Positions 14,108 to 33,198 of a stretch of 64,000 nucleotides of DNA are shown piece after piece. The notes under the pieces were generated by a model. That model had not been told where the DNA came from. It saw nothing but the letters and a program-made list of their open reading frames with translations, and searched no databases. The translations under genes were made by a program, and so were the position numbers. The stretch spans positions 930,001-994,000 of the forward strand of contig NC_013165.1 in assembly GCF_000023885.1 (NCBI RefSeq). The letters are read 5' to 3'. The stretch's first letter is position 1. Each line of letters begins with the position of its first letter. Source of the DNA: Slackia heliotrinireducens DSM 20476. GTDB lineage: Bacteria; Actinomycetota; Coriobacteriia; Coriobacteriales; Eggerthellaceae.

Positions 14108-14974
14108 ATGGCTCAGATCACCGCTGCCATGGTCAAGGAACTCCGCGAAATGACCGACGCCGGCATGATGGAGTGCAAGAAGGCGCTCGTCGAAGCTGAC
14201 GGCGATATGGAGAAGGCCGTCGACGTCCTGCGTACCCGCGGCCTTGCCGCAGTCGCCAAGAAGGCCGGCCGTGCCACCAACGAAGGTACCATCGCCGCCG
14301 TTGTCTCCGAGGATGCCAAGTCCGGCGTTCTTGTCGAGCTGAACTGCGAAACCGACTTCGTGAGCAGCAACGACAAGTTCAAGGGCTACGCACAGCGCAT
14401 CGCCCAGGCCGCTCTCGCCGCCAAGCCTGCCGACCTCGATGCCCTGAAGGCCGTTGAATTCGAAGGCGAAACCGTCGAAGAGACCCTCACCGACTGCATC
14501 CATAAGATCGGCGAGAACACTCAGCTCGCCCGCTTCACCGTGGTCGAGGGCGACGCTGTCGTTCCTTACATCCACATGGGCGGCAAGATGGGCGTTCTGG
14601 TCACCTTCGCCGTCGAGGGCATCGACCCCACCACCGACGCGTTTGTGGCTGCCGGCCGTGACGTTGCCATGCAGGTCGCCGCGATGAACCCCATCGCCGC
14701 CACCCGCGAGGATGTCCCTGCCGACGTCGTCGAGCATGAGAAGACCATCTACAAGACCCAGGCCGCCGAGTCCGGCAAGCCCGAGCACATCCAGGAGAAG
14801 ATGGCCGAAGGCCGCCTGAACAAGTTCTTCCAGGAGCAGTGCCTCACCGAGCAGACCTTCGTCAAGAACGGCGACCAGACCGTCGGCGAGTACGTCGACG
14901 CCGTCGCCAAGGAGCTGGGCGGCACCATCAAAGTGACCGGCTTCAAGCGCTTCCAGCTGGGAGAAACCGCGTAA
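14108..14974 (+). CDS. tsf: Translation elongation factor Ts
   Basis: 288 aa. The N-terminal UBA-like domain includes VKELREMTDAGMMECKKAL, and the core has the TDFVSSND motif (here CETDFVSSND) that contacts EF-Tu. It is the GDP/GTP exchange factor for EF-Tu. AAAGGA lies upstream of the ATG. It follows rpsB with a 127-bp gap containing a hairpin. Confidence 0.98.
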   Translation: MAQITAAMVKELREMTDAGMMECKKALVEADGDMEKAVDVLRTRGLAAVAKKAGRATNEGTIAAVVSEDAKSGVLVELNCETDFVSSNDKFKGYAQRIAQAALAAKPADLDALKAVEFEGETVEETLTDCIHKIGENTQLARFTVVEGDAVVPYIHMGGKMGVLVTFAVEGIDPTTDAFVAAGRDVAMQVAAMNPIAATREDVPADVVEHEKTIYKTQAAESGKPEHIQEKMAEGRLNKFFQEQCLTEQTFVKNGDQTVGEYVDAVAKELGGTIKVTGFKRFQLGETA

Positions 14975-20004: not shown

Positions 20005-20054
20005 GTTAATGGTGGAGCCTAGGGGGATCGAACCCCTGACCTCATGGCTGCCAG
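20005..20054 (-). repeat. attL: 3' tRNA-Ala fragment (50-bp direct repeat)
   Basis: Identical to 33118-33167. It contains the tRNA-Ala 3' half from the anticodon region through the encoded CCA, truncated at the anticodon stem, so it is not a functional tRNA. Confidence 0.95.
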
Positions 20055-20149
20055 AATATAACCCCAGGTCACAGGCGGGGTTTCGTGGGTACTCAACCTG
20101 GGCGAACGCCCCTCCCGATACCAGTCGATACCCCAAGGGGACTAGCCAA

Positions 20150-20170
20150 AGTCCCGTAAAAAGTCCCGTA
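20150..20170 (+). repeat. Putative integrase arm sites, left end
   Basis: AGTCCCGTA occurs twice (20150-20158, 20162-20170) with 12-bp period. The same doublet with the same period lies at 33048-33068 near the other att site. Confidence 0.65.
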
Positions 20171-20222
20171 TTTTTCAAACTCTCGAACGGGCGAAGCGTC
20201 GATAGCGAAAGGAGCGCAAACC

Positions 20223-20474
20223 ATGACAAGAGACGAAATCAACGAGGTTCGCGAAAGGCGACTTGCCGCCTGCATCAACATGGTAAAAGAAGCCTACCAG
20301 GTTGACGGCTACGGAGTTGCAGAGCTGATAGGAATAAGCAAGAGCACTTGGACGCGCTACGAGCGTGCGCCATGGGGCAAGAAGGGGTTCGGCTTGTTCG
20401 TCGGGCTTTCGGAACTCACCACCGTTAAGCTGTCTTGGTTGATGGCGGAAGACCTAGATCCCGACCTTGATTAG
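20223..20474 (+). CDS. Small HTH (XRE-like) protein at the left end of the element
   Basis: 83 aa. Contains a likely helix-turn-helix (YGVAELIGISKSTWTRYERAPWGKKG), close to Cro/CI-type proteins, and an acidic C-terminus. AAAGGAG precedes the ATG. It is the only gene in the left part of the element on the plus strand and converges on the packaging operon across a shared terminator. Regulator or host-interaction cargo. The exact role is unknown. Confidence 0.7.
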   Translation: MTRDEINEVRERRLAACINMVKEAYQVDGYGVAELIGISKSTWTRYERAPWGKKGFGLFVGLSELTTVKLSWLMAEDLDPDLD

Positions 20475-20506
20475 TCAGGACGGCGCATAGGCGACAGCCG
20501 AACGCC

Positions 20507-20541
20507 AGCGCCCGCCTCGTCGGTTGAGGCGGGCGCTTCTC
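20507..20541. terminator. Strong hairpin between convergent transcripts
   Basis: A 12-bp perfect stem: AGCGCCCGCCTC (20507-20518) with GAGGCGGGCGCT (20526-20537). It lies just past the end of the packaging operon and the small HTH gene and could terminate both. Confidence 0.75.
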
Positions 20542-20903
20542 TATTGCCCTGCATCTGCGAATTGAGATTGCTGGTTCGTGTCGTATTGCACCGTTACCTT
20601 AACGTCGCTGTGCGGGTGTCCCGTGAGGTCGTTAATTGCCTTGATTTCGTAGTAACCGCCGTCGTGGTAAACGTAGTCGTGCAGCCTGATTTCGAAGTCG
20701 GGGCGCGTGAAGGTCGCAACGAAGACGGGTTCAGCCCAAACGGCATGTGCGGCGTAGTATTCTTCGAACGACTCGCCCTTAAAGTTAGCCCAAAGGTCGG
20801 CGACTTTGTAGGGCGCTCCCTCGTGCGGCACTCCCATGCTGTCCACGTATCCCTCGCCTATCTTCCAGTATCCAATCTTGGTGTCTTTCAGGTGCTTTGG
20901 CAT
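20541..20903 (-). CDS. Probable phage head-tail adaptor / head-closure protein
   Basis: 120 aa. The pattern (ATFTRPDFEIRLHDYVYHDGGYYEIKAINDLTGHPHSDVKVTVQ) fits the small beta-barrel head-closure proteins of HK97/SPP1-type phages, a family known mostly by structure. Last gene of the packaging operon, 13 bp after TerL. AAGGAGG precedes the ATG. A head-completion protein in a tailless element would form the docking site for a helper tail. Confidence 0.65.
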   Translation of the reverse strand: MPKHLKDTKIGYWKIGEGYVDSMGVPHEGAPYKVADLWANFKGESFEEYYAAHAVWAEPVFVATFTRPDFEIRLHDYVYHDGGYYEIKAINDLTGHPHSDVKVTVQYDTNQQSQFADAGQ

Positions 20904-20916
20904 CGTTCTAGCCTCC

Positions 20917-22557
20917 TTACAGGTCGCAAAACTCGTTGTAGTGGTCGTTTAGGCCGACATACGCATCCAGCAGGCTCGCCAGCCCGTCGATTCGCTGCCG
21001 GGGCTTCTGGTTCTTCACGGGTACGATGTTCCCGTTGCGGTCGGTTTCGATGGCCGTGTTGCTAATGCACCATTTGAGAATCGGGCTGTTGTTGTAGTTG
21101 ATCCGCTTGGCTTGCAGGTCAGCCCCTAGCCGCTGCATCGGCAACGAAAGCGTTTTGGCTCCTTGTATGGTGCGCTCCATCCTGAAACCGTGGCGCTGCA
21201 TCTCGTCTACCCAGTAGCGGGCGCTATAGCTGTCGTAGTAGATCCAGGCGGGCGTGATGCCGAACTCGACCATTTCCAAGAACCATGCTGTAACATCGCC
21301 GTAGTCAATCGTGTTACCGTGGCACAGGCGCAGAAGCCCACGTTCGCGCCACTTGTCATAGGGTATCTTGTCATCCCTTACCCGCTTCTCAAGGTTCGCT
21401 TCGGGTATCCAGTACATCTGGGTGACGTAGAAAAGCCCGTCGCGGTGCATGAGCAGCGTTGCCGCCGTCAGGTCGGTTGTGATCGACAGGTCAGCGCCGC
21501 CGATAGCCCAGCAGCCTTTGAAGTCGGATAGGTCGAAGGTGGCCGTATTGTTCAGGTCATCGAAGGTCAGCCACGCGCCCGCGCTCGTGTTGCGAACGTT
21601 GAAGTCCTTGCACAAGATACCGTTAAGGTCGTTGGGTGAGTTCTTCGCACGCTCGACCTTTGCGCGTAGGTCGTCCAGCTTTTTGACCGTCCCAAGCGAC
21701 GGGTTGGCCTTGTACCAGGCTTTTTCGTCCTTCCATTCCTCGACCGTATCCAGTTCGTACACGACGGCAAGGAAACGTTCGTCTTCGATAACCCCGTTGA
21801 GAACCTTCTCGGCGTACTCGTACATGTCATCAAAGATGCATTCGCGGACGAAACCCGCCGTCGTGGTCATCAGCAAGAGCGGTTGCCGCCTCGTGCTCAT
21901 GGACTGTTTCATTACCTCGTACAAGTTGCGATCTGTGATGCCGTGCAGCTCGTCGATGCAGACGGCGCTAGCGTTCAGGCCGTCAAGCGTGTTGGAGTTC
22001 TTGCCCAACGGCTGCATTTTCGACATTTGACCAGCAAAGTAGAGGTCGGTACGGCGCTTCTTTATCCGCTTCGCGAGTGTCGGCGACTGCTCGACCATAT
22101 GCGCGGCCTCGTCGAATATCAGCTTGGCTTGGTCAAGCTTGGTGGCCACGGTGTACACCTCCGCGCCCGGTTCGCCGTCAGCGGTCAGCAGATAGAGAAG
22201 GATGCCGGCGGCAAGCGTACTTTTGCCCCCCTTGCGTGAAATGCACAGAAGCGCCTCGTTAAAGCGCCGCTCGCCCGTGTCCTTGTCAACGAAGCCGAAC
22301 AGGGCGCACACGAAAGCCTTCTGCCACAGCTCCAACTCAAGGGGCTTGCCCGCCCACTCGCCTTTAGAGTGGCGGCAGAAACGGCGCATAAACTCAATCG
22401 GGCGGTTGCCCTTCTCCACGTCGAAAACCCAGCGCCCGCGCCCGTTCTCGACCTCGTAGGCCAGCCGTTCGTAAGCCTTGCGGGTCTTCTCGCATACCGT
22501 GACCGCGCCCGACTCTATGGCGTGCCAGTATTCGGTGATGTAATCGCGGGCGCTCAT
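20917..22557 (-). CDS. terL: Phage terminase large subunit
   Basis: 546 aa. ATPase part: Walker A-like SRKGGKST (107-114), Walker B VCIDE (199-203), and the coupling region LLMTTTAGF. The C-terminal RNase H-like nuclease has its first Asp in WAIGGADLSITTDLTA. Full length for the HK97-type family. It powers DNA packaging into the prohead and cuts the concatemer. The start is 6 bp after the terS stop. Confidence 0.95.
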   Translation of the reverse strand: MSARDYITEYWHAIESGAVTVCEKTRKAYERLAYEVENGRGRWVFDVEKGNRPIEFMRRFCRHSKGEWAGKPLELELWQKAFVCALFGFVDKDTGERRFNEALLCISRKGGKSTLAAGILLYLLTADGEPGAEVYTVATKLDQAKLIFDEAAHMVEQSPTLAKRIKKRRTDLYFAGQMSKMQPLGKNSNTLDGLNASAVCIDELHGITDRNLYEVMKQSMSTRRQPLLLMTTTAGFVRECIFDDMYEYAEKVLNGVIEDERFLAVVYELDTVEEWKDEKAWYKANPSLGTVKKLDDLRAKVERAKNSPNDLNGILCKDFNVRNTSAGAWLTFDDLNNTATFDLSDFKGCWAIGGADLSITTDLTAATLLMHRDGLFYVTQMYWIPEANLEKRVRDDKIPYDKWRERGLLRLCHGNTIDYGDVTAWFLEMVEFGITPAWIYYDSYSARYWVDEMQRHGFRMERTIQGAKTLSLPMQRLGADLQAKRINYNNSPILKWCISNTAIETDRNGNIVPVKNQKPRQRIDGLASLLDAYVGLNDHYNEFCDL

Positions 22558-22563
22558 TCGGCC

Positions 22564-22869
22564 TTACGCCCCTTTGATGAACTCGTCGAACTCGTCGCCC
22601 TGCTCGGGTTCCCCATCGGGCAGCAGGTCGGTTAGCTGCTTATAGAGGGTGGAGTAGCGCGAAACGGTCAGGTTGTAGGATTTCAGCGCGGGCGTTTCCC
22701 TCGTGAACTCCTGCTTGCCGTTCTTGAACTCCTCGACAACGCCGTTCGCCTCGATCTCGGCGCGTAGCTTCTCAAGGGTCGATTGCATGAACTCAAGTTC
22801 TGTGATGAGTTGACGCGCAATCGGTCTTTTGTTACTGTCTATCTGCGGTAACAAGTCCATGAGTTCCAT
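22564..22869 (-). CDS. terS: Phage terminase small subunit, P27 family
   Basis: 101 aa, with the P27-type core ETPALKSYNLTVSRYSTLYKQLTDLLPD. An AGGAGGT site precedes the ATG. TerS recognises the packaging site of its own genome, so a dedicated copy would let the element package itself selectively. Confidence 0.85.
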   Translation of the reverse strand: MELMDLLPQIDSNKRPIARQLITELEFMQSTLEKLRAEIEANGVVEEFKNGKQEFTRETPALKSYNLTVSRYSTLYKQLTDLLPDGEPEQGDEFDEFIKGA

Positions 22870-23536
22870 TTTTGTACCTCCTAAAAGTCAGCCCCCAGCA
22901 AATGGGGGCTTTCTCGTTTTAGCCCCCTCCCATATGGAGGCCGCGCGGTTAAAGAAGACTCCCGCCGCCGTTCCCTGGTGGTATAGAGAACATGCGTTCG
23001 GGGGGGGGGTGGTTCCGTCGCGTCTGCGGGGTCTGGAAACGTCGTAGCAGGTCGCTTTTTGCCGTTGCGGTACTTGTGTAGAGGTCGTGCGTGTCCGACG
23101 TTCTACAGCCCTCTAGATTGCTTTATTCGGGTCGTTCCGCACGTGCTTACAGCGGGTAGGTTAGGGATTGCGGGCGCTCGCCGTGCCGTCAGTGTCGGCT
23201 CGCGTCGTTGGCTCGCGCTCGGCGAAAGGAGGTGCCGCCCTCGCCTGGTACAACCTCAATGGACAAAGGCTTTCGAGCGGGTTGCCAGCTGTCCGCCCTA
23301 GTGCCAGGCTCGCAAGGCTCGCGGCTTACGTCCGCGCTTCTGGTCGGCTCGCGTAGTACCCGCTCCGCTCGCGTCCCTTCCGCGCTGCCGTGTCCGGGGT
23401 CGCTCCGCCCCGCTTGCGATTGCGCCGGGTTCCAACCTCGCGCTTGCCCTATCGCTCGCCCGCGTGTGAGATAAGCGAGAAACCCGAAAGCAGCTTCACG
23501 CGTTGAACCTTCCAGCACGGCAAGCGTCCGCAATCC
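22870..23536. other. Non-coding region between terS and HNH gene; candidate packaging site
   Basis: 667 bp with no credible gene. The 114-aa minus frame at 23189-23533 is low-complexity Arg/Ala/Gly and has no family features. The region contains a run of ten G (23000-23009) and many copies of GGCTCGC or CTCGC between about 23160 and 23470. A large silent gap beside terS in an otherwise tightly packed operon suggests cis-acting sequence, such as cos. Confidence 0.55.
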
Positions 23537-23830
23537 CTATACCGTTTTCAAGTCCCCGTTCTCGTCGAAATACAAGCCGGGTTCGCAGCTCCGCCCCTCG
23601 AAGTGCTCCTTGTTGTGGCAGTCCCTGCAAAGAGCCTCTAGGTTCTCGAAATCAAGCGTCACTCCTGGGTCGTGCAGGTTGTCCGCTGTGACGTACCTCT
23701 TGTGATGCACTATCACGGCGGGTCGCCCGCACCGTTCGCAAATTCGGTTCACCGTTTCCAGGTAGGCCGCTCGCGTCCGTTTCCAGGCTCGCGACTTGTA
23801 GAACGCCGTGCGCTCGGGGTCGCGCTGCAT
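23537..23830 (-). CDS. HNH endonuclease of the packaging module
   Basis: 97 aa. HNH core with zinc-binding pairs CERCGRP and CRDCHN, and the catalytic HHK (VIVHHKRY). Small HNH proteins next to terminase genes work with TerL in cos cleavage in HK97-type phages. The start lies 2 bp after the connector gene stop, so translation is probably coupled. Confidence 0.9.
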   Translation of the reverse strand: MQRDPERTAFYKSRAWKRTRAAYLETVNRICERCGRPAVIVHHKRYVTADNLHDPGVTLDFENLEALCRDCHNKEHFEGRSCEPGLYFDENGDLKTV

Positions 23831-23832
23831 GG

Positions 23833-24153
23833 CTAGCCGTTGGCGGGCAGGTATCCGACACCCACGAGCGCCTTGACGCTCTTTGCCAGCGATCCGACAA
23901 CGCGGCTCAACGCCTGCGAGTCGGTGCCGTCAGGGTTGAACCACAGTTGCAGCACGAAGCGCGAGAGCTGCTTGACCAGCTCGTGACAATCGTCGCCCGC
24001 CGTGTATTCCGCCGGATAGCCCGTCATTACCTCTACGTAGGACGGGACGGAGGCGGCTAGCTGCTCGATGAGCGGCAGGTTGTCCGAACTCACGCGCAAG
24101 AGGTCTAGCGCCTCGCCAGTCTCCATCCATTCAAGCCCGTTGATAGCCGCCAT
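23833..24153 (-). CDS. Probable phage head-tail connector (gp6-like)
   Basis: 106 aa. An all-helical protein with the gp6-type pattern LPLIEQLAASVPSYVEVMTGY near the start. Sits directly downstream of the major capsid gene, as connectors do. ATG 24153 is preferred over the GTG at 24162 because AGG at 24164-24168 is better spaced for the ATG. Confidence 0.65.
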   Translation of the reverse strand: MAAINGLEWMETGEALDLLRVSSDNLPLIEQLAASVPSYVEVMTGYPAEYTAGDDCHELVKQLSRFVLQLWFNPDGTDSQALSRVVGSLAKSVKALVGVGYLPANG

Positions 24154-24172
24154 TCTGCTCACTACCTAACGC

Positions 24173-25384
24173 TTAGGCCGTCGCCTTGGTGACGTAAACG
24201 AAAGCATCGGCGACGATGGGCTTGCAGTCCGCGATTGCCAGGGCGCGGTAGTCGATAAGCCCCTTGGTGAACGAGCTGTCGCGGGAAACGTCAAGCGCGA
24301 TTCCCTCGGGCATGTTCCAGCCGTTGTAACGGAAGTCGCCGAACAGAATGTCGTGGTCTTCCATGTAATCGTCAATCACGACGGGGAAACCGAGAATGCG
24401 CCCCTTGCCCTTCTCCACGGGGTCAGCAACGAAGATAGGCCGCTTGTTCTCGTCGACCAGGCCGTAAACGTCCGTGTAAAGGGTCGTGTTGTTCATGACA
24501 AATCGGGCGTTCTGCGAGTAGCCGCGATGCAGCAGGGCAATTGCATTGACGATGTCGGCGTATGCAAGCGACTTGTTGGCGGCAACCGTTACCTTGTTGG
24601 TGCCGTCAGTCCAGGTGATGCCGGAGACGATGCCCGTACCCTGCCCGCTGCCCGTGCCGTCAACCATGGCGTTACCAAGGCAAGCCATGACGGAGGCGGT
24701 CAGCTCGTCGGCAAGGTAGCTCTCGAACGCGCCGATAGACATGGTGCGCACAGCCGCCGAAATGGAGAGAATGCGCATGATCTCGTAAGCGCCGAACGTG
24801 ACGGGGACGGGAGAAACCTTCTCGGTTTCGACGGCAGCGCCCTCGACGTGCCAGGACGCAGCCGCGCCCGGTGTCGCAACGGGAATGCTGATGTTCGCGG
24901 GCATGTGGAAGCCGCGGGAAATGCTCATGATGCCGCCCATGTCACGCGCCTTGACGATGATCTCGTTAAGCGTGTGGGTCGGAATAACAGCCGCCGTGTC
25001 GGACAGCTTGTTAAATGCGTTGGCTCGCGCCTCGGCGTTAACGTTGTCGAACGCGGCCTGCTCGGCCTGGGTGAGTTTGTTGCCTTGCAGGTGCTTGAAG
25101 AATGCGGAGCGGTAGACCTTCGAGGCCGCGCCCTCGCCGTCCTTCTCGCCCTTGGCGGTGTTGGCGACCTCGGCGGGCGCGTTCGCGCTGGTGGCGGGCT
25201 GTGCGCCTCGCTTCTCCGCGATGGCCTGCTCCAACGCCTCGGCCTCGATTGCGTAGCCCGCAACGTCGGCGTTCGGGTCTTCTGCAATGTCCTTCTCGAT
25301 GGCCTTGGCGCGTGCCTCCATGACGGCGACGCTAGAGTTCTTCCAGAAACCGTAAGCCTCGGCAACGGTGTTGTACTTAGTCAT
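24173..25384 (-). CDS. HK97-family major capsid protein
   Basis: 403 aa. The N-terminal Ala/Glu-rich helical delta-domain (about 1-100) is the scaffold removed by the prohead protease. The HK97 fold follows: KLSDTAAVIPTHTLNEIIVKARDMGGIMSISR, then the E-loop and P-domain, GTGSGQGTGIVSGI and ILGFPVVIDDYM. Overlaps the protease gene by 8 bp. Shell protein of the head. Confidence 0.93.
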   Translation of the reverse strand: MTKYNTVAEAYGFWKNSSVAVMEARAKAIEKDIAEDPNADVAGYAIEAEALEQAIAEKRGAQPATSANAPAEVANTAKGEKDGEGAASKVYRSAFFKHLQGNKLTQAEQAAFDNVNAEARANAFNKLSDTAAVIPTHTLNEIIVKARDMGGIMSISRGFHMPANISIPVATPGAAASWHVEGAAVETEKVSPVPVTFGAYEIMRILSISAAVRTMSIGAFESYLADELTASVMACLGNAMVDGTGSGQGTGIVSGITWTDGTNKVTVAANKSLAYADIVNAIALLHRGYSQNARFVMNNTTLYTDVYGLVDENKRPIFVADPVEKGKGRILGFPVVIDDYMEDHDILFGDFRYNGWNMPEGIALDVSRDSSFTKGLIDYRALAIADCKPIVADAFVYVTKATA

Positions 25385-25949
25385 TGACGATTCTCCTTAA
25401 GCGGATAAGTGTTGTTACCTTCAAAGCCTCGCGCCGCGCCGCCTCGTCGCGTGCTGTCTGCATCGCGCCCCGCGCCTCTACCGAGGTCTGCGGGTAGGCG
25501 GGAAACGGCACTACGGAAACCTCGTACACTTTCGCAATGCGCGTGATCGTGCGCGTGTTCGTCGCGGGGTCGTAAGAGCTGCCGCCCTCCGGCACCGTGA
25601 AAGCGAACGACATACCCGACAAGTCGCCGCGTTTCACGGCTGAATAGACCTCGCGGGCGGTCTGGTTGTCGCCTGCCAGCGATGCAACCATGGACAAGCC
25701 GCGTTCGGTTACCGTGAACGTCATAGTCTTGGGGGTACGTGCTAGTGGCACTCGGTTTTCGTCGTGGTTGTAAATCAGTGTTGAGTCGTGCAGGTCGCAG
25801 GAGTCCAGCGCCCCGCTCTTGATAACCTCGGTGTATGTGCGCCCGTCAGGGTCGTTGATCGTGGTCGGTACGTCGAACACGATAGGCCAGCCCGTCAGGG
25901 TCATTTCGCCCTGGGTTGTTTCCAGGTTGGCGGTTCTGATTTCCTTCAT
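25377..25949 (-). CDS. HK97-family prohead protease
   Basis: 190 aa. The herpesvirus-like serine protease fold has its catalytic His in LIYNHDEN and Ser in LSGMSFAF. It cleaves the capsid delta-domain during maturation. AGGAGG upstream. Positioned between portal and capsid as in HK97-type phages. Confidence 0.92.
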   Translation of the reverse strand: MKEIRTANLETTQGEMTLTGWPIVFDVPTTINDPDGRTYTEVIKSGALDSCDLHDSTLIYNHDENRVPLARTPKTMTFTVTERGLSMVASLAGDNQTAREVYSAVKRGDLSGMSFAFTVPEGGSSYDPATNTRTITRIAKVYEVSVVPFPAYPQTSVEARGAMQTARDEAARREALKVTTLIRLRRIVND

Positions 25950-25957
25950 TCCGCCTC

Positions 25958-27208
25958 CTAAGCCGTGGGGTCGTTCTCGGTGCCGTCATCGTCGGGCGCT
26001 CCCGCGAAGTCGCCAGACATGCTGTGAACCGCGCCGTTGCCAGCCTTGAAAAGCTGGTATTGGTCTACCAGCTCGGCGCTCGCGTAGTTGAGCGACTGAA
26101 TACGCCGGTCTTCCGCGATGGGCGGTAAGCCCATAAGGTCTAGCGCCTGGTTGATGGTGATAACGCCCATAGGTACGGCGCTGTTCAGCAATTCGACCTT
26201 GCGGGCGTTGTTGATGAAGTGCAGGCGCGAAGTGCTGCAATCAATCTTGCGCCCGCCTGCGATCTGCTCGGGCGTGTAAATCTTTCGCGTGTATTCGAGT
26301 TCGGTCTGTAAGGCCAGCGCCTCGATAACCGCCTCGTCGAACGCGCCGAACTCGTCATCTGTGAAGGTCGAATTTACGATGCTCTCGCCGATGCCGAGGT
26401 AGTTGTAAATCTTGGCCTTGGTCGCGTCCTGGTCTTCCTTGCTGATGGTCAGCGGCTTTTGCTCGATGGGCGTGTACTCCATGGACTGGTCAACAGCCGC
26501 AATGCCGCCGCTGTTCTCCAAGGACAGGTAGTCTTTTACGAACGCCTCCTTCTGCTCCTTCAGCTTGTCGGCGCTCATTATCTGGGTGAAATGGACGATT
26601 CCGCGAATGCTGCCAGCGGTCTTGATTGCGTTCCGTATGCCCTGGTTCTGAACGTCGGCCAGCTCCACGCCCGCCGCTATAGCGTCGTTGGGGTCGCCCT
26701 CCACGTCGGCGCTGTTGAAGTGCCTACGGAGGTGGATAACGTCGCGGTAGGGCAGCGTGTAGGCTCGACCGTTCGCAAAGGTGAACTCGCAATAGACGTT
26801 GCCCGCCTGGTCTTGCGTGTAGTCGCAATGAGAGACGTGAACCGGGTAGAGGCCGACAACACGCCCGCCCTCGCGATGCACGTAAACATAGCTGTTGTTG
26901 TGCAGATAGAGGTGGGTGTATTGCATGTAAAGCAAATCGTAGGCCGTCATGAGCGGGTTCGGCTCCACTTGCAACAGGCGTGCAAGCCTGTCGTCGCCCT
27001 GGGCGCTCGTTCCGTCGGAGAAGCGCACGACAGGGGTCAGCAGGAACTTGGCCGCGAGGCGTGCAATCGCGTCAACGCCGGCGCGGAAAACGTCGTTGCT
27101 GTATGGGTCGCCGGAAAAGGCCGTGAACGTCGCGGGTCGCCCCGTCACTTCGAGGCGCTCGGTGCGCCTGCCGTCACGGCGTTTGAAAAGGTCGGTAAGT
27201 CTAGCCAA
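25958..27208 (-). CDS. Phage portal protein, HK97 family
   Basis: 416 aa. Recognised from NDVFRAGVDAIARLAAKF, RLLQVEPNPLMTAYDLLYM, YRDVIHLRRHFNSADVEGD and the C-terminal LLNSAVPMGVITINQALDLMGLPPI. It forms the dodecameric DNA channel of the head. TTG start with AAGGAG 9 nt upstream. First gene of the packaging operon. Confidence 0.92.
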   Translation of the reverse strand: MARLTDLFKRRDGRRTERLEVTGRPATFTAFSGDPYSNDVFRAGVDAIARLAAKFLLTPVVRFSDGTSAQGDDRLARLLQVEPNPLMTAYDLLYMQYTHLYLHNNSYVYVHREGGRVVGLYPVHVSHCDYTQDQAGNVYCEFTFANGRAYTLPYRDVIHLRRHFNSADVEGDPNDAIAAGVELADVQNQGIRNAIKTAGSIRGIVHFTQIMSADKLKEQKEAFVKDYLSLENSGGIAAVDQSMEYTPIEQKPLTISKEDQDATKAKIYNYLGIGESIVNSTFTDDEFGAFDEAVIEALALQTELEYTRKIYTPEQIAGGRKIDCSTSRLHFINNARKVELLNSAVPMGVITINQALDLMGLPPIAEDRRIQSLNYASAELVDQYQLFKAGNGAVHSMSGDFAGAPDDDGTENDPTA

Positions 27209-27243
27209 TTTCGATAGCTCCTTAGTCGGCGGGTAATCGACTA

Positions 27244-27273
27244 AGCGGGCGCGATGGCTCCCTCGCGCCCGCT
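27244..27273. other. Perfect 11-bp hairpin in the packaging-operon leader
   Basis: AGCGGGCGCGA (27244-27254) and TCGCGCCCGCT (27263-27273). It lies between the promoter -10 and the portal start, so it would be at the very 5' end of the packaging mRNA. There is no T-run, so stabilising or regulatory rather than a classical terminator. Confidence 0.6.
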
Positions 27274-27275
27274 CG

Positions 27276-27315
27276 ATTATATTGTCCCACGAATGAGACA
27301 GTCAATCTAGATTGA
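27276..27315 (-). promoter_or_regulatory. Promoter of the packaging operon with overlapping palindromes
   Basis: On the minus strand TTGACT (27300-27305), 18 bp, TATAAT (27276-27281). A perfect 14-bp palindrome TCAATCTAGATTGA (27302-27315) overlaps the -35. An imperfect repeat, TGTCCCA and TGAGACA separated by 4 nt, fills the spacer (27283-27300). Two candidate operators thus control capsid and packaging genes. Confidence 0.75.
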
Positions 27316-27329
27316 TAAAGTAACCCCAG

Positions 27330-27578
27330 CTAGTCGCGGTACGCGCCAATGTCGAAGTCGAAGACCGTGCATGTCCCGAAGGTATAGCCGTCCTCGCGAT
27401 ACGCTACGTCCTCGTCGGTTCCCCTGAACGCGGTGGTCGTGCGCCTCTCCTTGAAGCACGCGCATTTGCTGTGGCAGTTGCGCGTGGTCAGCGGGCAGAA
27501 GAGCGGGAATACCTCGCCGTTGTACGCGTCCCAAGGGTCGCCGCTGATAATGTCCGTGAAGCTGTCTGTTTTAGCCAT
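27330..27578 (-). CDS. Small hypothetical protein with Cys cluster
   Basis: 82 aa. Residues FCPLTTRNCHSKCACFKE contain four closely spaced Cys (C, CHSKCAC), suggesting metal binding. No family recognised. GGAGG is well placed before the ATG. Sits between the replication genes and the packaging promoter. Confidence 0.6.
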   Translation of the reverse strand: MAKTDSFTDIISGDPWDAYNGEVFPLFCPLTTRNCHSKCACFKERRTTTAFRGTDEDVAYREDGYTFGTCTVFDFDIGAYRD

Positions 27579-27676
27579 TTCGATACCTCCGTATCATCTT
27601 GTTGCTCGCCGCGAAAAAACGTCAGCGGTCGGGCGGGTAGTAAAGGAAAGTCGGTCAGTTTGTCGGTTGCACGGTG

Positions 27677-27705
27677 GCAAGTAGCCCGCCCACGGGGCTA
27701 CTTGC
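27677..27705. other. Inverted repeat between helicase and small-protein genes
   Basis: GCAAGTAGCCC (27677-27687) pairs with GGGCTACTTGC (27695-27705). No T-run follows. It lies in the 190-bp gap downstream of the small Cys protein gene and upstream of the end of the helicase gene. Could be an attenuator or a replication-origin element. Confidence 0.4.
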
Positions 27706-27771
27706 ACAGTGACAACCACTAGCGAAGCGAATTAGTAGCAGCAGCTAGCTTTTATAAGCAGCTGCTTGCAG

Positions 27772-28974
27772 CTATTCGCCGTCCAGGGGCATTTGCTCTT
27801 GCTCGGGCGATGCTCTCGGTGGGTTCTTCGGCCTCACGTAGCGTTTGCGTTGCGTTACCTGAACGAGTTCCATGTACTCGCAATCTTCCAGCGCATCGGC
27901 CACGGCTCGCGGGTCTTCTCCCGCAACTTCGGCGGCTTCTTTCATAATCAACCCCTCTTCTCCTACCTGCTCGGCGTAGAAGTGCGCCAGCAGCGCGGCA
28001 ACGATGCGGGCGTTCTTAGCCGCCTTTTGCGCGGTCTTGATTTCTCCCGTCGCCTTGCCGCCGTTGCGCCTCGCCTCGTCAGACGAGCTACGGGGTCGCC
28101 AGCCGTCCGTGATGCCCTCCGTGTCTACACGGTGGCACGGGTACTTGAAGATGAGCGGCACAGGCTCCATGCGCCCGAACGAGCGAAGCCCGCCAGATTC
28201 GAGCAGGCACGCGGTTTCGCCGTCTTCCAGGTAGTCGGAGGGGTCGCCGTCCTTGGGGAACGTCTCGACCAGGGTTAGAATCGCGTCCGGGCAGTCGGTC
28301 CAGGCGCTAGAACCCCTTGCGCGGTCTGCCGGGTCGCGGTCGCCGTCCTTGGCCTTGCCGAAGTGCACCACGAACAGGACGGTTGCGCCCGTGGCCTCGA
28401 CGATCCGAAGAACGACGTTGTAAAACGACCTGATGGTGATAGAGGCGTTCTCGTCCCCTTCGAGCAGCGCCGCGCAGCTATCGAGAACAACCAAATCGAA
28501 GTCGCCGGGTTTGCAGCGTGTCTCGATGTCGTGCGCAACGTCGGATATGGTGGCGGGCTTGCCCTCGGGCGTGGTCGCCCCGCGAAGAGTCCACTTGACC
28601 ACGCCAGCGTCGACCTTGGCCTTGTCCGCGCCCATAGCATCGCAAACGACGCTGAAACGCTTGTGCAGCTCGGCGGGGTGAATCTCGGGGTCGACGTAGA
28701 GGCAGCGCCCGCCGCCCTGAATCTCGCGCCCGCAGAAGTCGCCGCCGCACACGACGCGAACGGCCAGCCCGATCGCGAACATGGACTTTCCCACCTTGGC
28801 CTTGCCGCCGACCTCGATGGTGTAGCCACGGCGAACGATGCCGGGGATGAGCGGAGGGTTGAGCGGGGGCGGGTCTGATGCACGCACAGCGTCCCAGGGC
28901 GGCAGCAAAAGCGTTTCGCCCGCCTCGGCCTCGGCCTCGCTCATGCTCTCGTTGAGGTCTTCCCACACGCCCAT
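27772..28974 (-). CDS. RepA-like hexameric helicase (RecA/DnaB-fold AAA ATPase)
   Basis: 400 aa. Walker A VGGKAKVGKSMFA and Walker B LVVLDSCAAL. The motif-3-like VLFVVHFGKAKDGD and the region RARGSSAW are typical of RepA-type replicative helicases. The C-terminal about 120 residues look like a winged-helix DNA-binding part. Start at ATG 28974, 2 bp after the primase stop. The longer frame would overlap the primase. With the primase it forms the element's replication module. Confidence 0.83.
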   Translation of the reverse strand: MGVWEDLNESMSEAEAEAGETLLLPPWDAVRASDPPPLNPPLIPGIVRRGYTIEVGGKAKVGKSMFAIGLAVRVVCGGDFCGREIQGGGRCLYVDPEIHPAELHKRFSVVCDAMGADKAKVDAGVVKWTLRGATTPEGKPATISDVAHDIETRCKPGDFDLVVLDSCAALLEGDENASITIRSFYNVVLRIVEATGATVLFVVHFGKAKDGDRDPADRARGSSAWTDCPDAILTLVETFPKDGDPSDYLEDGETACLLESGGLRSFGRMEPVPLIFKYPCHRVDTEGITDGWRPRSSSDEARRNGGKATGEIKTAQKAAKNARIVAALLAHFYAEQVGEEGLIMKEAAEVAGEDPRAVADALEDCEYMELVQVTQRKRYVRPKNPPRASPEQEQMPLDGE

Positions 28975-28976
28975 GG

Positions 28977-29984
28977 CTAGGCACCCTTCGAGGCCAGCAC
29001 GTCGCAAGCGTCCTTGCACCCGTCAGGCCAGCTCATGAGCGAGTAGGGAACGCCAATTTTCTTCAAGTCGGCGGCTATGGTCTTCGCGGCCTTGTCGCCC
29101 GCCTCGTCCTCGTCCATGGCGACAACCACCTTGCGGGGGCGCAGCTCGGCGGGCGTGTAGCAGAGCACTTGACCTATCCGCTTCTTGAGGCCAGTACCGC
29201 CCAAGGCCACGACGGAGACGGGGCGCGTGCTCACGCGCTCCAGAGCGATCGCGTCTAGAAGACCCTCGACCAGGTAGACCACGGGCAACCCCTCGGCAAG
29301 CAGGTATTCGCGGAAAAGGGGCGACTTCTTGCCAGTCGGCCTGATCTCCTTGTGCTCGGGCGGCTGCTCGGCGGGTACGGCGCGCAACATGCAGTAGCGC
29401 ACCTGCGAGAACCCCCTATCGTGCGGGTAGGGAATGCAAACGTAGCCGTTGACCTTCACGCGCTCGCGGAGCGTGAAACACCTGTTCAAGTCGCTAGGCT
29501 TGGCGACGTAGCCGAGGCCGCAGCGCACAATGTCAGCGTCGCTGAAGCCGCGTCCATAGAGATAACCAAGGGCGGGTTTCCCCTCGGGTTCGTAGAGGTC
29601 GCACAGGCATTTCTCGACGGTTTCGAGGACGTTGACCTTGAACCCGGTCTTGGCGGGCGGCTCGAACGGCGGGCGCTCGGCCTTGGCCTTGGGCGCGTAG
29701 TCGGCGCACTCGTCCAAATCGTGGCCGACGATTTGCGACACAATGCGCACCTGGTCTGCGAACCCAGAAACGCCCTCGACCTTGCCGACGAGTCCGAACA
29801 CGTCCACGGTAACACCTTCGCCGTAATCCGTAACAAGGTTGGAATCGGCGTAGAACCTGCAAGAAGGGTCGCGGTCTTCGCGCCACAAGCTACAGAAATT
29901 GCGCCCAAGGTTCGCGACCCCGTAGTGGTGCAGCACGTCGGGCATTGCGGCTTTCAGGGTGGCGATGTTCTCGGCGCTAATCAT
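28977..29984 (-). CDS. DnaG-like primase with Toprim domain
   Basis: 335 aa. N-terminal zinc-binding-like segment (HHYGVANLGRNFCSLWREDRDPSCRFY), then a Toprim fold with the Glu in VYLVEGLLDAIAL and the Asp pair in VVVAMDEDEAGDKAA. Makes primers for element replication. Start at ATG 29984 with AGGTGG upstream. A GTG three codons earlier has no usable site. Primase plus RepA-like helicase is the common replication pair of satellites. Confidence 0.85.
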   Translation of the reverse strand: MISAENIATLKAAMPDVLHHYGVANLGRNFCSLWREDRDPSCRFYADSNLVTDYGEGVTVDVFGLVGKVEGVSGFADQVRIVSQIVGHDLDECADYAPKAKAERPPFEPPAKTGFKVNVLETVEKCLCDLYEPEGKPALGYLYGRGFSDADIVRCGLGYVAKPSDLNRCFTLRERVKVNGYVCIPYPHDRGFSQVRYCMLRAVPAEQPPEHKEIRPTGKKSPLFREYLLAEGLPVVYLVEGLLDAIALERVSTRPVSVVALGGTGLKKRIGQVLCYTPAELRPRKVVVAMDEDEAGDKAAKTIAADLKKIGVPYSLMSWPDGCKDACDVLASKGA

Positions 29985-30104
29985 GCCTACCACCTGTTAA
30001 AATGAACTCGTGAGAATGAACGCAGCTCGCGCGCTCGTCCTCCGCCTCCAGCCCGCCGCGCTGCTCGTCGCCAAACAAACCAGCGTGGCGGGTGTCCGTT
30101 CCAA

Positions 30105-30344
30105 CTAGATACACGATTCCGCCCCCTTTACGTATTCGATAAGCGCCTCGCGGGTGAAGCGCAGATTGCGCCCCACATGGAAACACTTCAAGTTGCCGCG
30201 CTGAACCTCGCGGCTGATGGTTTTCACGTCCACGCCCAACAGCTCGGCGCATTTGTTGCGGTCGAAGACGTGCGGAACGTCATCGAACAGCGAATAGCCG
30301 GGTTCGGCGGGTACTTCCGACAGATAAACGACGCGCCCCTCCAT
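30105..30344 (-). CDS. Excisionase/AlpA-like HTH DNA-binding protein
   Basis: 79 aa from ATG 30344. The winged-helix motif FDRNKCAELLGVDVKTISREVQRGNLKCFHVGRNLRFTREALIEYV is the helix_turn_helix_17/excisionase type. Its ATG overlaps the stop codon of the preceding HTH gene by one base, so translation is coupled. Could be the excision factor or the activator of the replication genes. Confidence 0.82.
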   Translation of the reverse strand: MEGRVVYLSEVPAEPGYSLFDDVPHVFDRNKCAELLGVDVKTISREVQRGNLKCFHVGRNLRFTREALIEYVKGAESCI

Positions 30345-30553
30345 TACGGCACCTCGATTTCGATTGGTTCGAACAGCTCGGCGGGGTCGCCCTCCCAACC
30401 GAGAGCGTCGGCAATGCGCTTGCCGCGATTAGGCCAGGGCGGTTCTTGGCCGTTAACAATCCTGCTCACGGCCTGGGGTTTAAGCTTGGTCTTTGCGGCT
30501 AAATCGACCTGCTTCAATCCCCGTTTGTCTAACTCATACTTGATTCGCAGCAT
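30344..30553 (-). CDS. XRE-family repressor-like protein
   Basis: 69 aa, almost only a helix-turn-helix of Cro/CI type: LKQVDLAAKTKLKPQAVSRIVNGQEPPWPNRGKRIADALG. First gene of the leftward regulatory/replication operon, and divergent from the 326-aa gene and integrase. The palindrome between them is the natural candidate for its operator. Confidence 0.85.
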   Translation of the reverse strand: MLRIKYELDKRGLKQVDLAAKTKLKPQAVSRIVNGQEPPWPNRGKRIADALGWEGDPAELFEPIEIEVP

Positions 30554-30666
30554 AAAAACCTCCGTTCGTCGTGCTGCATTCGGTTATCTCGGATTGACAA
30601 CTCAATCCGACAATGCAATACTAATGGTACGTTAGTAGGGTCATACACACGCGAACGGAGGTTTTT
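30554..30666. repeat. 15-bp perfect inverted repeats flanking the divergent promoter region
   Basis: AAAAACCTCCGTTCG (30554-30568) and CGAACGGAGGTTTTT (30652-30666). Each arm carries the ribosome-binding site of the gene it borders. Either mirrored leaders or the ends of an invertible segment. Confidence 0.7.
30589..30622 (+). promoter_or_regulatory. Promoter of the 326-aa gene/integrase with overlapping operator
   Basis: TCGGATTGA (30589-30597) and TCAATCCGA (30602-30610) form a palindrome with a 4-nt spacer. It overlaps a -35 TTGACA (30594-30599) with AATACT 17 bp downstream. Binding here would block rightward transcription. Confidence 0.68.
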
Positions 30667-30672
30667 CTTAAT

Positions 30673-31653
30673 ATGGTTAATGGCTTGACAAAAGCGCAAG
30701 AGGCACAAGACGCAGCTTTCATGTGCTACGCAACTGACGAGTTCATAAAGCCGCTCTATGACGAGATAACGGCGCTCAATCCAGATTACGCTACTTATAC
30801 GCTCGCGGATATGTTCGCCTACCTCGTCCAGCTCGACAACGAACTCATGCTTGACGACGAACGCGAGACGATCGGCGACGAACTCATGCTTGATTTCGGT
30901 AACAACATGTGGGCAAACGTCCATGCAGGCGCAGACCTTGGAAGTTGGGAGAAAATAAAGACCGACAAGGGTTTAGAGGCCGTTTACTACGCGCCCCGGT
31001 TCGTCGCAGACCTCCATCACAACAGGCACCCGATTTTTCCCGGTTACGACCGTGGTAACGTTGCCGTGTTCCTCGCAGAAGAACGAGAGGCATACGAAGC
31101 CCTACCCGTACCTTATAAAGTAGCCCTCCTATCGCTCTACGTTGCGCAGAACATCGTCACAAGCCTTGAATGGGCGACACACAGGGTTGCTGCCTGCGGT
31201 AAGTATCTTAAATCGTCGGGTAGGTTGTCCCCTGGTGCCAGGGTTACGGCTCGTTATTGGCTCGGCGGTGACGGTCGTTACAAAGGCTGGGAATTGCGCA
31301 TAAGGGACACAAAACCGCCCAAGGAGTGGTTCATAGACCTCTCACGCTACCTGCGGGAGAACACGACGGCTATTGATGATTGCTACGGCGAAAACGCGAT
31401 GACCAACAAGCCCGCGAAGGAGAAGAAGCCCAGGAGCAACCAGGGGCGCACGGATACGCTCGTTGCATTCGTCCACGATATTCTACCCGCACGGGGAAAG
31501 CGTCCAGGCAAAGACGGCTATACCTGGGAAATGGCGCGTAACGACTTCTGGGATGAGTATCCAGAATATCAAGACTTCTACGGCACTGACAAGAAGGGCA
31601 TAGCGTTTTCAAAAGCATATAGAGAAGCGTTAAAACGCAGGGAGGGGCGGTAA
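30673..31653 (+). CDS. Hypothetical protein encoded upstream of the integrase
   Basis: 326 aa. No family recognised. The first 200 residues are helical and acidic to neutral (ADMFAYLVQLDNELMLDD, YKVALLSLYVAQNIVTSLEWATHRV). The last 110 residues are basic (KPAKEKKPRSNQGRTD, RPGKDGYTWEMARNDFWDEYPEYQDFYGTDKKGIAFSKAY), a pattern seen in DNA-binding tails of mobile-element regulators. No signal peptide or membrane span. Its stop is 2 bp before the integrase ATG, so the two are one operon. Regulator or defence cargo are both possible. Confidence 0.65.
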   Translation: MVNGLTKAQEAQDAAFMCYATDEFIKPLYDEITALNPDYATYTLADMFAYLVQLDNELMLDDERETIGDELMLDFGNNMWANVHAGADLGSWEKIKTDKGLEAVYYAPRFVADLHHNRHPIFPGYDRGNVAVFLAEEREAYEALPVPYKVALLSLYVAQNIVTSLEWATHRVAACGKYLKSSGRLSPGARVTARYWLGGDGRYKGWELRIRDTKPPKEWFIDLSRYLRENTTAIDDCYGENAMTNKPAKEKKPRSNQGRTDTLVAFVHDILPARGKRPGKDGYTWEMARNDFWDEYPEYQDFYGTDKKGIAFSKAYREALKRREGR

Positions 31654-31655
31654 TC

Positions 31656-33038
31656 ATGGCAAAACCCAAGCAGCGAGAGAACTACGGAAACGGCAGCATC
31701 ACGCCCGAACTCGACAAGGACGGCAACCAGAAGAAGAACCGCAAAGGCCAGCTCGTTTGGCGCGTGTGCCTCTCGTTCGGATACGAAACAGTCATCGACG
31801 GGAACGGCAACAAGAGGCGCAAGCGGAACAAGGTGCAGCGCATGTGCTACGGCTCGCTCGGCGACGCTCGCAAGTTCTGCAAGCAGCTACAGGCCGAATA
31901 CGAGAACATCGACCAGCAGGCGGCTCAAGGCTCGTTCAGGTGGGCGTGCGACAAGTGGCTTTCGTGGATGCGGGCGAAAGGTGGCGCATCCCAGGCCGTC
32001 TTGAGGCAATACACCACATGGCTCGGCTACATGTCAGACGTTCTCGGGGATAAGAAGCTGGTGGAGGTTAAGAAGTCGGACGTTGAGGCCGCAATGGTTG
32101 CGGTGAAGACCTCCCGCGACCTCTCGAATACGACGATGAACAAGATGTTCGCTGTCACGAAAAGGCTGTTCGAGTATTGCGTAGACTCCGATTGGATTAC
32201 CCGCAACCCATGCCGCAACATCGAAGCGCCCGCGAAAGACCGGGTAACGTCACGCCACAGCCTGACCGACGAGGAAAGCGCCGTTCTCCGCAAAAGGCTC
32301 GACCTCGCAGAGGCCGACGCGATCAGCGGCTACCTCGAAAAAGAGAACAGGCAATCCGACCACAACAACCTGTTCGGCCGCTCGTGCGTGCGCGGCTTGT
32401 CGCATATAAGCGGCATAATCGCTATCCGAATCATGCTCGCAACGGGTATGCGCAGGGGGGAGGTTTGCGGCCTCACGTGGGGCGCGGTCGATTTCGACAA
32501 CAGCCAGATTTACGTCAGGCAATCGCTCACGGCCTCGGTGGAGGTGAAAGACCCCAAGACCTACTCCGGCAGGCGTTCGCTGTTCGTTGAGCAGAACACC
32601 ATGCGGCACCTCAAGGAGTGGAAGACGTTCCAGGCGAAAGCCCTCCATATGGTCATGCCGGACGGCACGGCGCTCACGCAGACCGACGAAACGCCCGTAT
32701 GCTGCTCGGACGTGGGCGGGTGGCTCGACCCCACTAACCTTAGTCGTTGGTGGGGCGGCAACAAGAACAAGGGGCGCGAAGGCTTCCGCGACTCCCTGGG
32801 GTTCCCCGAACTCAACATGCACGAGCTAAGGCACACCCAGGCGACGATGCTTCTCGGCAACGGCATAGACGTTAAGAGCGTGCAGACGCGACTCGGGCAT
32901 TCCCGCGCATCGGTCACGCTCGACCAGTACGCCCACGCGATACCAGCCAACGACAAGGCCGCTGCCGACCTTATGGGCGAGATTATGAACAAGAGCGTCC
33001 CCGAAACGCCCGTCGTGCGGATAGGGGAGAGTGCCTAG
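31656..33038 (+). CDS. int: Tyrosine site-specific integrase
   Basis: 460 aa. An N-terminal arm-binding and AP2-like region, a core-binding SAM-like domain (about 90-185), and a catalytic domain with Arg266 (TGMRRGE), His389-x-x-Arg392 (HELRHTQA), His415 (LGHSRAS) and nucleophile Tyr425 (LDQYAHAI). All catalytic residues are present. A GGGAGGGG site overlaps the end of the upstream gene. It ends 79 bp from the att core in tRNA-Ala, its evident target. Confidence 0.96.
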   Translation: MAKPKQRENYGNGSITPELDKDGNQKKNRKGQLVWRVCLSFGYETVIDGNGNKRRKRNKVQRMCYGSLGDARKFCKQLQAEYENIDQQAAQGSFRWACDKWLSWMRAKGGASQAVLRQYTTWLGYMSDVLGDKKLVEVKKSDVEAAMVAVKTSRDLSNTTMNKMFAVTKRLFEYCVDSDWITRNPCRNIEAPAKDRVTSRHSLTDEESAVLRKRLDLAEADAISGYLEKENRQSDHNNLFGRSCVRGLSHISGIIAIRIMLATGMRRGEVCGLTWGAVDFDNSQIYVRQSLTASVEVKDPKTYSGRRSLFVEQNTMRHLKEWKTFQAKALHMVMPDGTALTQTDETPVCCSDVGGWLDPTNLSRWWGGNKNKGREGFRDSLGFPELNMHELRHTQATMLLGNGIDVKSVQTRLGHSRASVTLDQYAHAIPANDKAAADLMGEIMNKSVPETPVVRIGESA

Positions 33039-33047
33039 CCGTGAAGA

Positions 33048-33068
33048 AGTCCCGTAACAAGTCCCGTA
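33048..33068 (+). repeat. Putative integrase arm sites, right end
   Basis: AGTCCCGTA at 33048-33056 and 33060-33068, 12-bp period, same orientation as the left-end pair. Confidence 0.65.
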
Positions 33069-33083
33069 GCAGCCCCAGGAAAG

Positions 33084-33113
33084 AAAAAAGGCCAGAAGCT
33101 TGTGCTTCTGACC
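33084..33113 (-). terminator. Element-supplied terminator for tRNA-Ala
   Basis: On the minus strand GGTCAGAAGC and GCTTCTGGCC pair around ACAA and are followed by TTTTTTC. It lies 10 bp beyond the tRNA CCA end, inside the element, and replaces the host terminator left at 19972-20000. Confidence 0.85.
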
Positions 33114-33117
33114 TGGT

Positions 33118-33167
33118 GTTAATGGTGGAGCCTAGGGGGATCGAACCCCTGACCTCATGGCTGCCAG
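33118..33167 (-). repeat. attR: 50-bp direct repeat within intact tRNA-Ala
   Basis: Identical to 20005-20054. It overlaps the 3' half of the tRNA gene, so the element restores a complete tRNA on integration. Confidence 0.95.
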
Positions 33168-33198
33168 CCATGCGCTCTCCCAGCTGAGCTAAGGCCCC
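33123..33198 (-). tRNA. tRNA-Ala(GGC)
   Basis: Cloverleaf with acceptor GGGGCCT/AGGCTCC, anticodon loop CTGGCAG (anticodon GGC) and an encoded CCA. The G3-U70 wobble pair, the alanine identity element, is present. Integration site of the satellite. Confidence 0.96.

Follow-up and report, generated by a model that had tools for sequence, protein, structure and literature searches.

A probable capsid-forming phage satellite integrated in Slackia heliotrinireducens, with relatives in Coriobacteriia and Bacillota

Results

The window analyzed here is a 64,000-nucleotide stretch of Slackia heliotrinireducens DSM 20476 (contig NC_013165.1, positions 930,001 to 994,000), and at its positions 20005–33167 it holds a 13,163-bp element that an earlier note, made from the letters alone, had read as a tailless phage satellite resembling capsid-forming phage-inducible chromosomal islands (cf-PICIs) in a coriobacterium-like genome. 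The host was correctly guessed: the strain is S. heliotrinireducens RHS1, whose complete genome is one contig of 3,165,038 bp and whose origin is given as sheep rumen in the part of the source record consulted. The attachment (att) repeats that the note called clean are perfect 50-bp direct repeats at 20005–20054 and 33118–33167, with a spacing of 13,113 bp. As a tRNA-Ala(ggc) gene, the insertion site, spans 33123–33198 on the minus strand (tRNA prediction, with an Rfam cmscan match at 33126–33198), the right repeat is the 3′ end of this tRNA and the left repeat a copy of it. Near each end there is a pair of AAGTCCCGTA repeats 12 bp apart (left, 20149–20170; right, 33047–33068; both plus strand); this motif has four matches in the 64-kb window against 0.06 expected, and the pair with the same spacing is also found inside the end of a close relative (L006, described below). 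We presume that these pairs are integrase arm sites.

Nineteen translated open reading frames (ORFs) of the element were scanned against Pfam and PHROGs at E≤0.01. From the integrase side, the gene order is integrase, a 326-aa protein of unassigned function, a Cro-like regulator, an excisionase-like helix-turn-helix (HTH) protein, a Toprim primase, an AAA_25 helicase and an 82-aa protein of unassigned function, followed by portal, S78 protease, major capsid protein (MCP), a 109-aa protein, HNH endonuclease, a gap of 667 nt, small terminase (TerS), large terminase (TerL), a head-closure protein and a further HTH protein. The HK97-type head and packaging set that had been claimed was recovered by these matches and extended by two neck proteins left unnamed in the note. 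All of its genes lie on the minus strand: portal (25958–27208, family match 1e-48), S78 prohead protease (25377–25949, 1.5e-29), HK97-fold MCP (24173–25384, PF05065, 5.6e-44), the 109-aa protein (23833–24162), the HNH endonuclease of the packaging module (23537–23830, 1.2e-9), TerS (22564–22869, phrog_2343 at 3.6e-5, with a better match of 2e-30 to the unnamed phrog_1066), TerL (20917–22557, PF20441 at 7.9e-41 and phrog_9 at 4.5e-168, 94% identical in L006) and the head-closure protein (20541–20903, phrog_25 at 3.5e-4).

The two neck proteins were assigned mainly through structure models. The 109-aa protein matched no Pfam or PHROGs family and had no profile match among PDB sequences, and its model, built from 41 of 68 aligned connector rows, reached a predicted local distance difference test (pLDDT) score of 93.8, with HK97 gp6 (3jvo) as the best Foldseek match (probability up to 0.99; E 0.058–0.19; best template modelling scores 0.62/0.69). 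The product of 20541–20903 was modelled from 13 sequences (pLDDT 75) and matched the T1 stopper, SPP1 gp16 and 2kz4 with a Foldseek probability of 1.0 (7z4w and 9l0e among the entries matched), while its profile matched the 'putative head-tail adaptor' 2kz4 in the PDB at E 0.0027. These models point to an HK97 gp6-like head-tail connector and an SPP1 gp16/T1-type stopper, respectively, and therefore the element would build its head up to the stopper. MCP, protease, portal, head-tail connectors, TerS, TerL and HNH, the cf-PICI set so far as it can be read from sequence, are all encoded by the element, which supports the cf-PICI-like reading proposed earlier.

The absence of tail, tape-measure, holin and endolysin genes had been claimed as well, and none of these families was matched in the 19 ORFs. 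The note had also seen no room for them; the element has no unassigned stretch long enough for a tape measure, and the longest stretch without a called gene, 22870–23536, is conserved and matched no family, with a 114-aa frame in it equally devoid of Pfam or PHROGs matches. Upstream of terS, a conserved non-coding block at 22876–22975 (minus strand) shares 87% identity with L006 across 100 nt and 83% with the relative L059 across 48 nt, and can be inferred to be a candidate cos/pac site.

A close metagenomic relative of the element is present in IMG/VR as four contigs (L005, L006, L007 and L058), which are pieces of one near-identical element (99.6–100% over overlaps of 3.6–7.5 kb). It is colinear with the window, with 85% identity in MCP and 94% in TerL. 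The 14 shared genes that were compared carry no internal stop and are under purifying selection, with a ratio of nonsynonymous to synonymous substitution rates (dN/dS) of 0.03–0.33 at a dS of 0.38–1.0 (for the integrase, over 341 of 460 aa). Beyond the stopper gene, L006 holds a single accessory gene and then the arm-site pair, followed by what looks like the 3′ end of a tRNA, read by eye, as ARAGORN finds no full tRNA there; the relative, too, thus shows no tail module on that side. Searches with the primase and integrase, which were sensitive to close relatives only, returned L005/L007 and the L007 contig, and all relatives of the MCP among plasmids (31 records) and phages (220 records) were below 60% identity. 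At E≤1e-10, none of the 11 other Slackia genomes searched yielded the MCP, so the element is not a vertical trait of Slackia. This bears on the idea that the locus is a domesticated particle maker, a gene-transfer-agent-like or defensive capsid system retained for the benefit of the host. Purifying selection alone would fit such a system too, but the element has retained its integrase, excisionase-like protein, att and arm sites, primase and helicase, and its MCP was not found in those 11 genomes; we regard domestication as the least probable of the explanations weighed here.

Searches with TerL returned 24 loci in GTDB genomes and 153 in IMG/VR, 80 of the latter being kept. Two gene orders recur: a satellite order, portal-protease-MCP-(connector)-HNH-(TerS)-TerL, and a phage order, with TerL directly before portal. 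Eighteen of the GTDB loci have the satellite order and two (L048, L049) the phage order, the other four being partial or broken. A first, quick TerL tree of 120 rows (TerL coverage at least 88%; 20 duplicate or partial loci left out beforehand) comprised 86 rows of satellite order, 20 of phage order and 14 unclassed; in it, the TerL of the Escherichia coli EDL933 island, our reference cf-PICI, which we take to be EcCIEDL933, formed a long branch. A second, more careful tree of 44 of these rows dropped the unclassified rows except L059 (counted as satellite order though its contig has no portal), satellite-order rows more than 80% identical to a kept one, and four very long branches (L021, L057, L028, L030). 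Here one branch (support 93/96; 92% of 200 bootstrap trees) separated 27 satellite-order from 17 phage-order rows, the latter including annotated phages that carry tail genes, and the window, L006, L059 and the element of genome G325 grouped at 100/100.

TerL was found at E≤1e-100 in 13 of the 396 Coriobacteriia genomes searched. Among the twelve other than the host, ten have portal adjoining TerL, in G097 TerL is followed by protease and MCP, and the satellite order occurs only in G325, a member of another coriobacterial family. Its element (L157, 5645–19754; contig C13) is complete, measures 14.1 kb and is bounded by perfect 45-bp repeats at a tRNA-Val; it encodes an integrase, a primase different from that of the window, a head block of satellite order and a stopper. 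The earlier note had suggested a search for relatives at the same tRNA in other coriobacterial genomes; this one lies at another tRNA. End repeats were inspected at 15 loci. In Bacillota, elements bounded by repeats were L038 (13.2 kb, at a tRNA-Leu), L040 (15.0 kb) and L047 (13.0 kb); L037 (13.2 kb) is bounded by a repeat of just 14 nt, and beyond these and L034, L046 and L157 no convincing pair was seen at the 15 loci. Six of 82 viral loci, many of the 82 being cut stretches unable to show identical ends, have ends identical over 123–127 nt at lengths of 13,517–14,171 and are therefore assembled circles; L046 (13.7 kb) has identical ends of 55 nt. Full-length prophages, which would have undermined the satellite reading, were looked for among the relatives, and all same-order relatives with readable ends are 13–15 kb units, integrated or circular.

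Pooled ORF scans, each listing the 25 commonest of 175, 127, 30 and 27 families, drew on 117 of 135 flank ORFs, on 57 of 113 ORFs of six circles and on 16 unassigned ORFs from L154/L157, L038, L040 and L047, and ten circle ORFs from three of the six circles were scanned singly. Among the families listed, ORFs outside the head block of the relatives encode integrase, recombinase, primase, helicase, regulators, ParA, methyltransferase and head closure. Beside the Cohnella elements lie genes for large proteins with LysM/endolysin-type N-terminal matches (L033 14317–17067; L034 14882–17113). The one in L034 falls outside a 16-bp repeat pair with a spacing of 14.7 kb, and no end-repeat pair was found in L033.

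A resident helper was sought in the complete 3.165 Mb host genome with six profiles, each of which matched in 1 to 7 of 14 control genomes. Neither a second PF03354 terminase nor, at E≤0.01, PF03237 (Terminase_6N), PF04466 (Terminase_3), PF10145 (PhageMin_Tail), PF20155 (TMP_3) or PF04630 (Phage_TTP_1) was found, and the helper is therefore probably external. According to the accessible part of PMC11389934, EcCIEDL933 is mobilized by phages foreign to its own strain, and for this reason the absence of a resident helper is no objection to a satellite. The same absence would also fit a full prophage that had lost its tail and lysis genes and is now decaying, and the head proteins do have homologues in full phages, at about 24–53% identity. 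The genes themselves argue against decay: inactivation was looked for, and the frames described earlier as intact show no broken gene and evolve at the dN/dS values given above. Decay is further disfavored by the same head order at a similar size at another tRNA in G325, in the repeat-bounded Bacillota elements and in the circles, and by the differing order of the phage relatives, with TerL directly before portal. We consider a decaying prophage highly improbable.

Some relatives appear to be plasmids. In L059, which belongs to the TerL subclade of the window (TerL 77%), the stretch behind the stopper gene (2609–6027) encodes, besides an HTH protein and ParA, two proteins of 119 and 616 aa, and contains four 22-bp iterons. 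The 616-aa protein had no Pfam match and could not be aligned to the protein that occupies the same place in L095 (E 0.17); because ParA and iterons adjoin it, we presume it to be the Rep. The ParA family was matched by 6 of the 57 pooled circle ORFs, and with the ParA of L059 as the query all seven circles (L095, L096, L100, L113, L120, L124 and L046) were matched, as were 28 of 163 loci searched overall (164 with EDL933, which was left out); the window element has no match to it. The seven circles measure 13.5–14.2 kb and each has 2.9–4.0 tandem units of 21–23 bp directly behind an ORF of 457–602 aa, with no tail family among the 25 commonest families listed. By sequence, L059 and the seven circles look like capsid-forming satellite plasmids, and since L046 belongs to a Lachnospiraceae bin, their hosts include Clostridia.

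Plasmids of this kind could be maintained without infection, and MiniFlayer provides a precedent, in the part of PMC10690885 consulted, for a satellite that adsorbs to its helper. The element could accordingly be imagined to spread as a tailless particle or in some other manner that does not involve borrowed tails. We judge this very unlikely, given that the head module extends as far as a connector and a stopper, proteins that serve tail docking, and that no fibre or adsorption family was matched in the scanned ORFs of the element.

The 667-nt gap between HNH and terS, in which no gene was recognized, contains a candidate structured RNA (23165–23536, minus strand) that begins directly behind the HNH stop codon and has a closing stem of 22 bp. 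Between the window and L006 the gap shows 0.22 changes per site, as compared with a dS of about 0.65 for the genes on either side; the value is 0.14 in columns 100–380 and 0.52 in the first 100 columns. The 22 pairs at the ends of the domain are fully formed in both elements with five double changes, and shifting the partner strand by 1–3 columns reduces pairing to 32–44%. A shuffle control, weak in that only two distinct sequences were available, reached the real pairing in 16 of 500 cases. In L060 and G325, whose gaps have no significant similarity to that of the window by blastn or nhmmer, a stem of about 25 bp and of unrelated sequence begins no more than a few bases away from the HNH stop codon. 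The closed domain measures 372 nt in the window, 371 nt in L006 (3211–3581), 349 nt in L060 (5803–6151) and about 329 nt in G325 (L157, 16147–16475), with stems of roughly 22–26 bp. For a wider test, 104 sequences were reduced to 90 with HNH and TerL in line and then to 67 with a gap of at least 150 nt, each compared with 20 mononucleotide shuffles; the strongest stems were those of the window, L060, G325, L087 and L006 (z from −5.9 to −4.2), that of L087 being a short hairpin outside the window's subclade, and most other loci showed no stem.

Minimum-free-energy folding alone is unconvincing (z −1.23), and the argument for an RNA therefore rests on pairing kept across sequence change. No Rfam family was matched within the gap (cmscan, E≤1); the other cmscan matches, to a sub-threshold tmRNA at 20010–20134 and a permuted tmRNA at 33064–33150, lie elsewhere and were set aside. 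A DNA-similarity search of phages gave no match to the domain, a search of 296 genomes of the class gave only the host's own genome and two chance-like matches of 29–34 nt, and an exact 25-mer of the domain occurred only in contigs already known. An insertion bounded by inverted repeats is a possible alternative explanation of the closing stem, but the slowly evolving core and fixed place of the domain favor a kept structure. We therefore treat the stem-closed domain of about 370 nt as a candidate structured RNA, whose location suggests a role in packaging.

The remaining genes bear out the claim that integrase, primase, helicase and regulators are all present, each having Pfam or PHROGs matches. 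They are the tyrosine integrase (31656–33038, plus strand, 2.1e-19), the Cro/C1-type regulator (30344–30553, minus), the excisionase-like HTH_17 protein (30105–30398, minus), the Toprim primase (28977–29993, minus, 4.6e-17) and the AAA_25 (RepA/DnaB-like) helicase-like ATPase (27772–29019, minus, 3e-29, scanned as 27775–28974). The conserved 82-aa protein (27330–27578, minus; 62% identity in L005) has no assigned function, and the 83-aa HTH protein at the other end (20223–20474, plus) is a possible regulator (HTH_31 at 0.001, below its cut-off; phrog_2328 at 5.2e-4). The place between integrase and regulator is occupied by the 326-aa gene in the window (30673–31653, plus; ORF call and family scans) and by a different 331-aa gene in L007 (1035–2030), and behind the stopper gene L006 encodes a 340-aa protein that weakly matches a zinc ribbon (6257–7279); these are likely accessory-gene slots. 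Three unassigned ORFs of the window had no PADLOC match to defence genes at E≤0.01; of the slot proteins, those of 326 and 331 aa had none, and the 340-aa protein had a marginal one (9e-4).

Discussion

Because the element has no tail genes and several relatives are built alike, it is most likely a tail-borrowing satellite. We put the probability that it is an intact, integrated capsid-forming phage satellite working like a cf-PICI at roughly 0.88. In the proposed cycle, the element would excise once a helper siphophage infects the cell or is induced, and it would then replicate by means of its own primase and helicase. Its own HNH, TerS and TerL would package its DNA, with the block upstream of terS probably providing the cos site. 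The heads would be made of the element's own protein and closed by the stopper; they would be fitted with helper-made tails and leave the cell through the helper's lysis.

Several observations weigh against this interpretation. Excision, particles, dependence on a helper and transfer are deduced from gene content, and an unusual resident prophage could have escaped the profile searches. The connector has a Foldseek E of 0.058 despite its probability of 0.99, and confidence in the stopper model is moderate (pLDDT 75). In the first TerL tree, the fork that held the satellite-order rows (98) also took in phage-order rows L048, L049 and L158 without resolving the branching, and the support of the branch that separates the two orders in the second tree is just below the mark set by the tree program. 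In the G325 element, a neck gene resembling a tail terminator lies between portal and protease (phrog_78, 7.4e-5), whereas the window lacks a counterpart at that place. As the pooled tables hold the commonest 25 families, an infrequent tail match among the relatives could have escaped notice; weak 'tail protein' matches (9e-5 and 1e-3) came from a 430-aa ORF of the Cohnella relative L034, LysM was matched in 2 of the 117 pooled flank ORFs, and a siphovirus tail protein gene lies at L035 94–1659, to the left of a satellite-order element, where it perhaps belongs to a neighboring prophage or to a satellite and prophage nested in one another. Lastly, the EDL933 island is distant, with 28% identity in TerL, 33% in protease, 35% in HNH and 19% in portal, and no MCP match (E 1e-3).

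Coriobacteriia are common in gut and rumen, and satellites that make their own capsids and probably depend on helper tails can now be placed in this class. The same satellite type is common to Coriobacteriia and Bacillota, as integrated islands of 13–15 kb and as circular, plasmid-like elements. RHS1 is a type strain whose genome is complete, and by its sequence the element is intact, so that a direct test of induction is possible. The stem-closed domain was an unexpected feature and offers a concrete target within the packaging module. One may go further and regard the element as part of a coriobacterial lineage within a large Bacillota-Coriobacteriia satellite clade of islands and iteron plasmids that possesses a dedicated RNA of about 370 nt for packaging or for discrimination against helper DNA; this is speculative and, in our view, rather unlikely, and if true, it would introduce a packaging RNA into HK97-type packaging driven by HNH and TerL.

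According to the available part of PMC10690885, cf-PICIs bring their own MCP, protease, portal, connectors, TerS, TerL and HNH and depend on a helper for tails only, and an average size of 14 kb is given in the portion of PMC10803314 consulted. The element is likewise a 13.2-kb chromosomal island with integrase, att repeats, regulators and primase, has its own head, connector, HNH, TerS and TerL, and matched no tail or lysis family. As in the EDL933 island, its head genes precede HNH-TerS-TerL; the order is portal-protease-MCP-connector-HNH-TerS-TerL-stopper in the element and MCP-protease-portal-closure-connector-HNH-TerS-TerL in EDL933. The interval between HNH and TerS also differs, containing a stem-closed non-coding domain in the element (667 nt) and an annotated 60-codon ORF plus 123 bp in EDL933, and so does the host class. 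Capsids of cf-PICIs arose in three separate radiations, as stated in the accessible text of PMC11389934; since the present clade cannot be placed among them, we file the element as cf-PICI-like by gene content and claim no descent.

Capsid-forming satellite plasmids (cf-PISPs) are known from Vibrio, with none reported outside the genus in the part of PMC13230959 available. They have a head and packaging set without tails, as here; L059 and the seven circles also appear to share the plasmid form, having ParA and iterons, and circle L046 places apparent capsid-forming satellite plasmids outside Vibrio; the window element differs in being integrated, with integrase and att sites and no ParA match. 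The HK97-type siphophages Caldibacillus CBP1 and Lactobacillus PLE2 and the Ruminococcus bicirculans locus L048 have homologous head and packaging proteins (TerL 47–53%), but in all three TerL is directly upstream of portal, unlike in the element, and CBP1 and PLE2 have annotated tail genes.

MulchRoom and MiniFlayer, as far as the consulted sections of PMC10690885 describe them, share with the element an Actinomycetota host and satellite-borne capsid, portal and terminase genes, and a helper tail is presumed for MulchRoom; by these descriptions they are set apart, having no recognizable primase and direct terminal repeats where the element has primase and helicase. The same sections report capsid-encoding satellites of another family from Streptomyces and homologues of known satellites in Actinomycetota, and for this reason the phylum as such is not new to satellites; the earlier note had suggested that an element here would extend a class described mainly from Proteobacteria and Firmicutes. 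The literature searched, which took in few subscription papers, yielded no description of satellites in Coriobacteriia, Eggerthella or Slackia. To the cf-PICIs already known, the present analysis adds a lineage from Coriobacteriia, represented by two integrated elements that are complete, as well as a clade that spans phyla and includes plasmid forms, and a candidate RNA of the packaging module.

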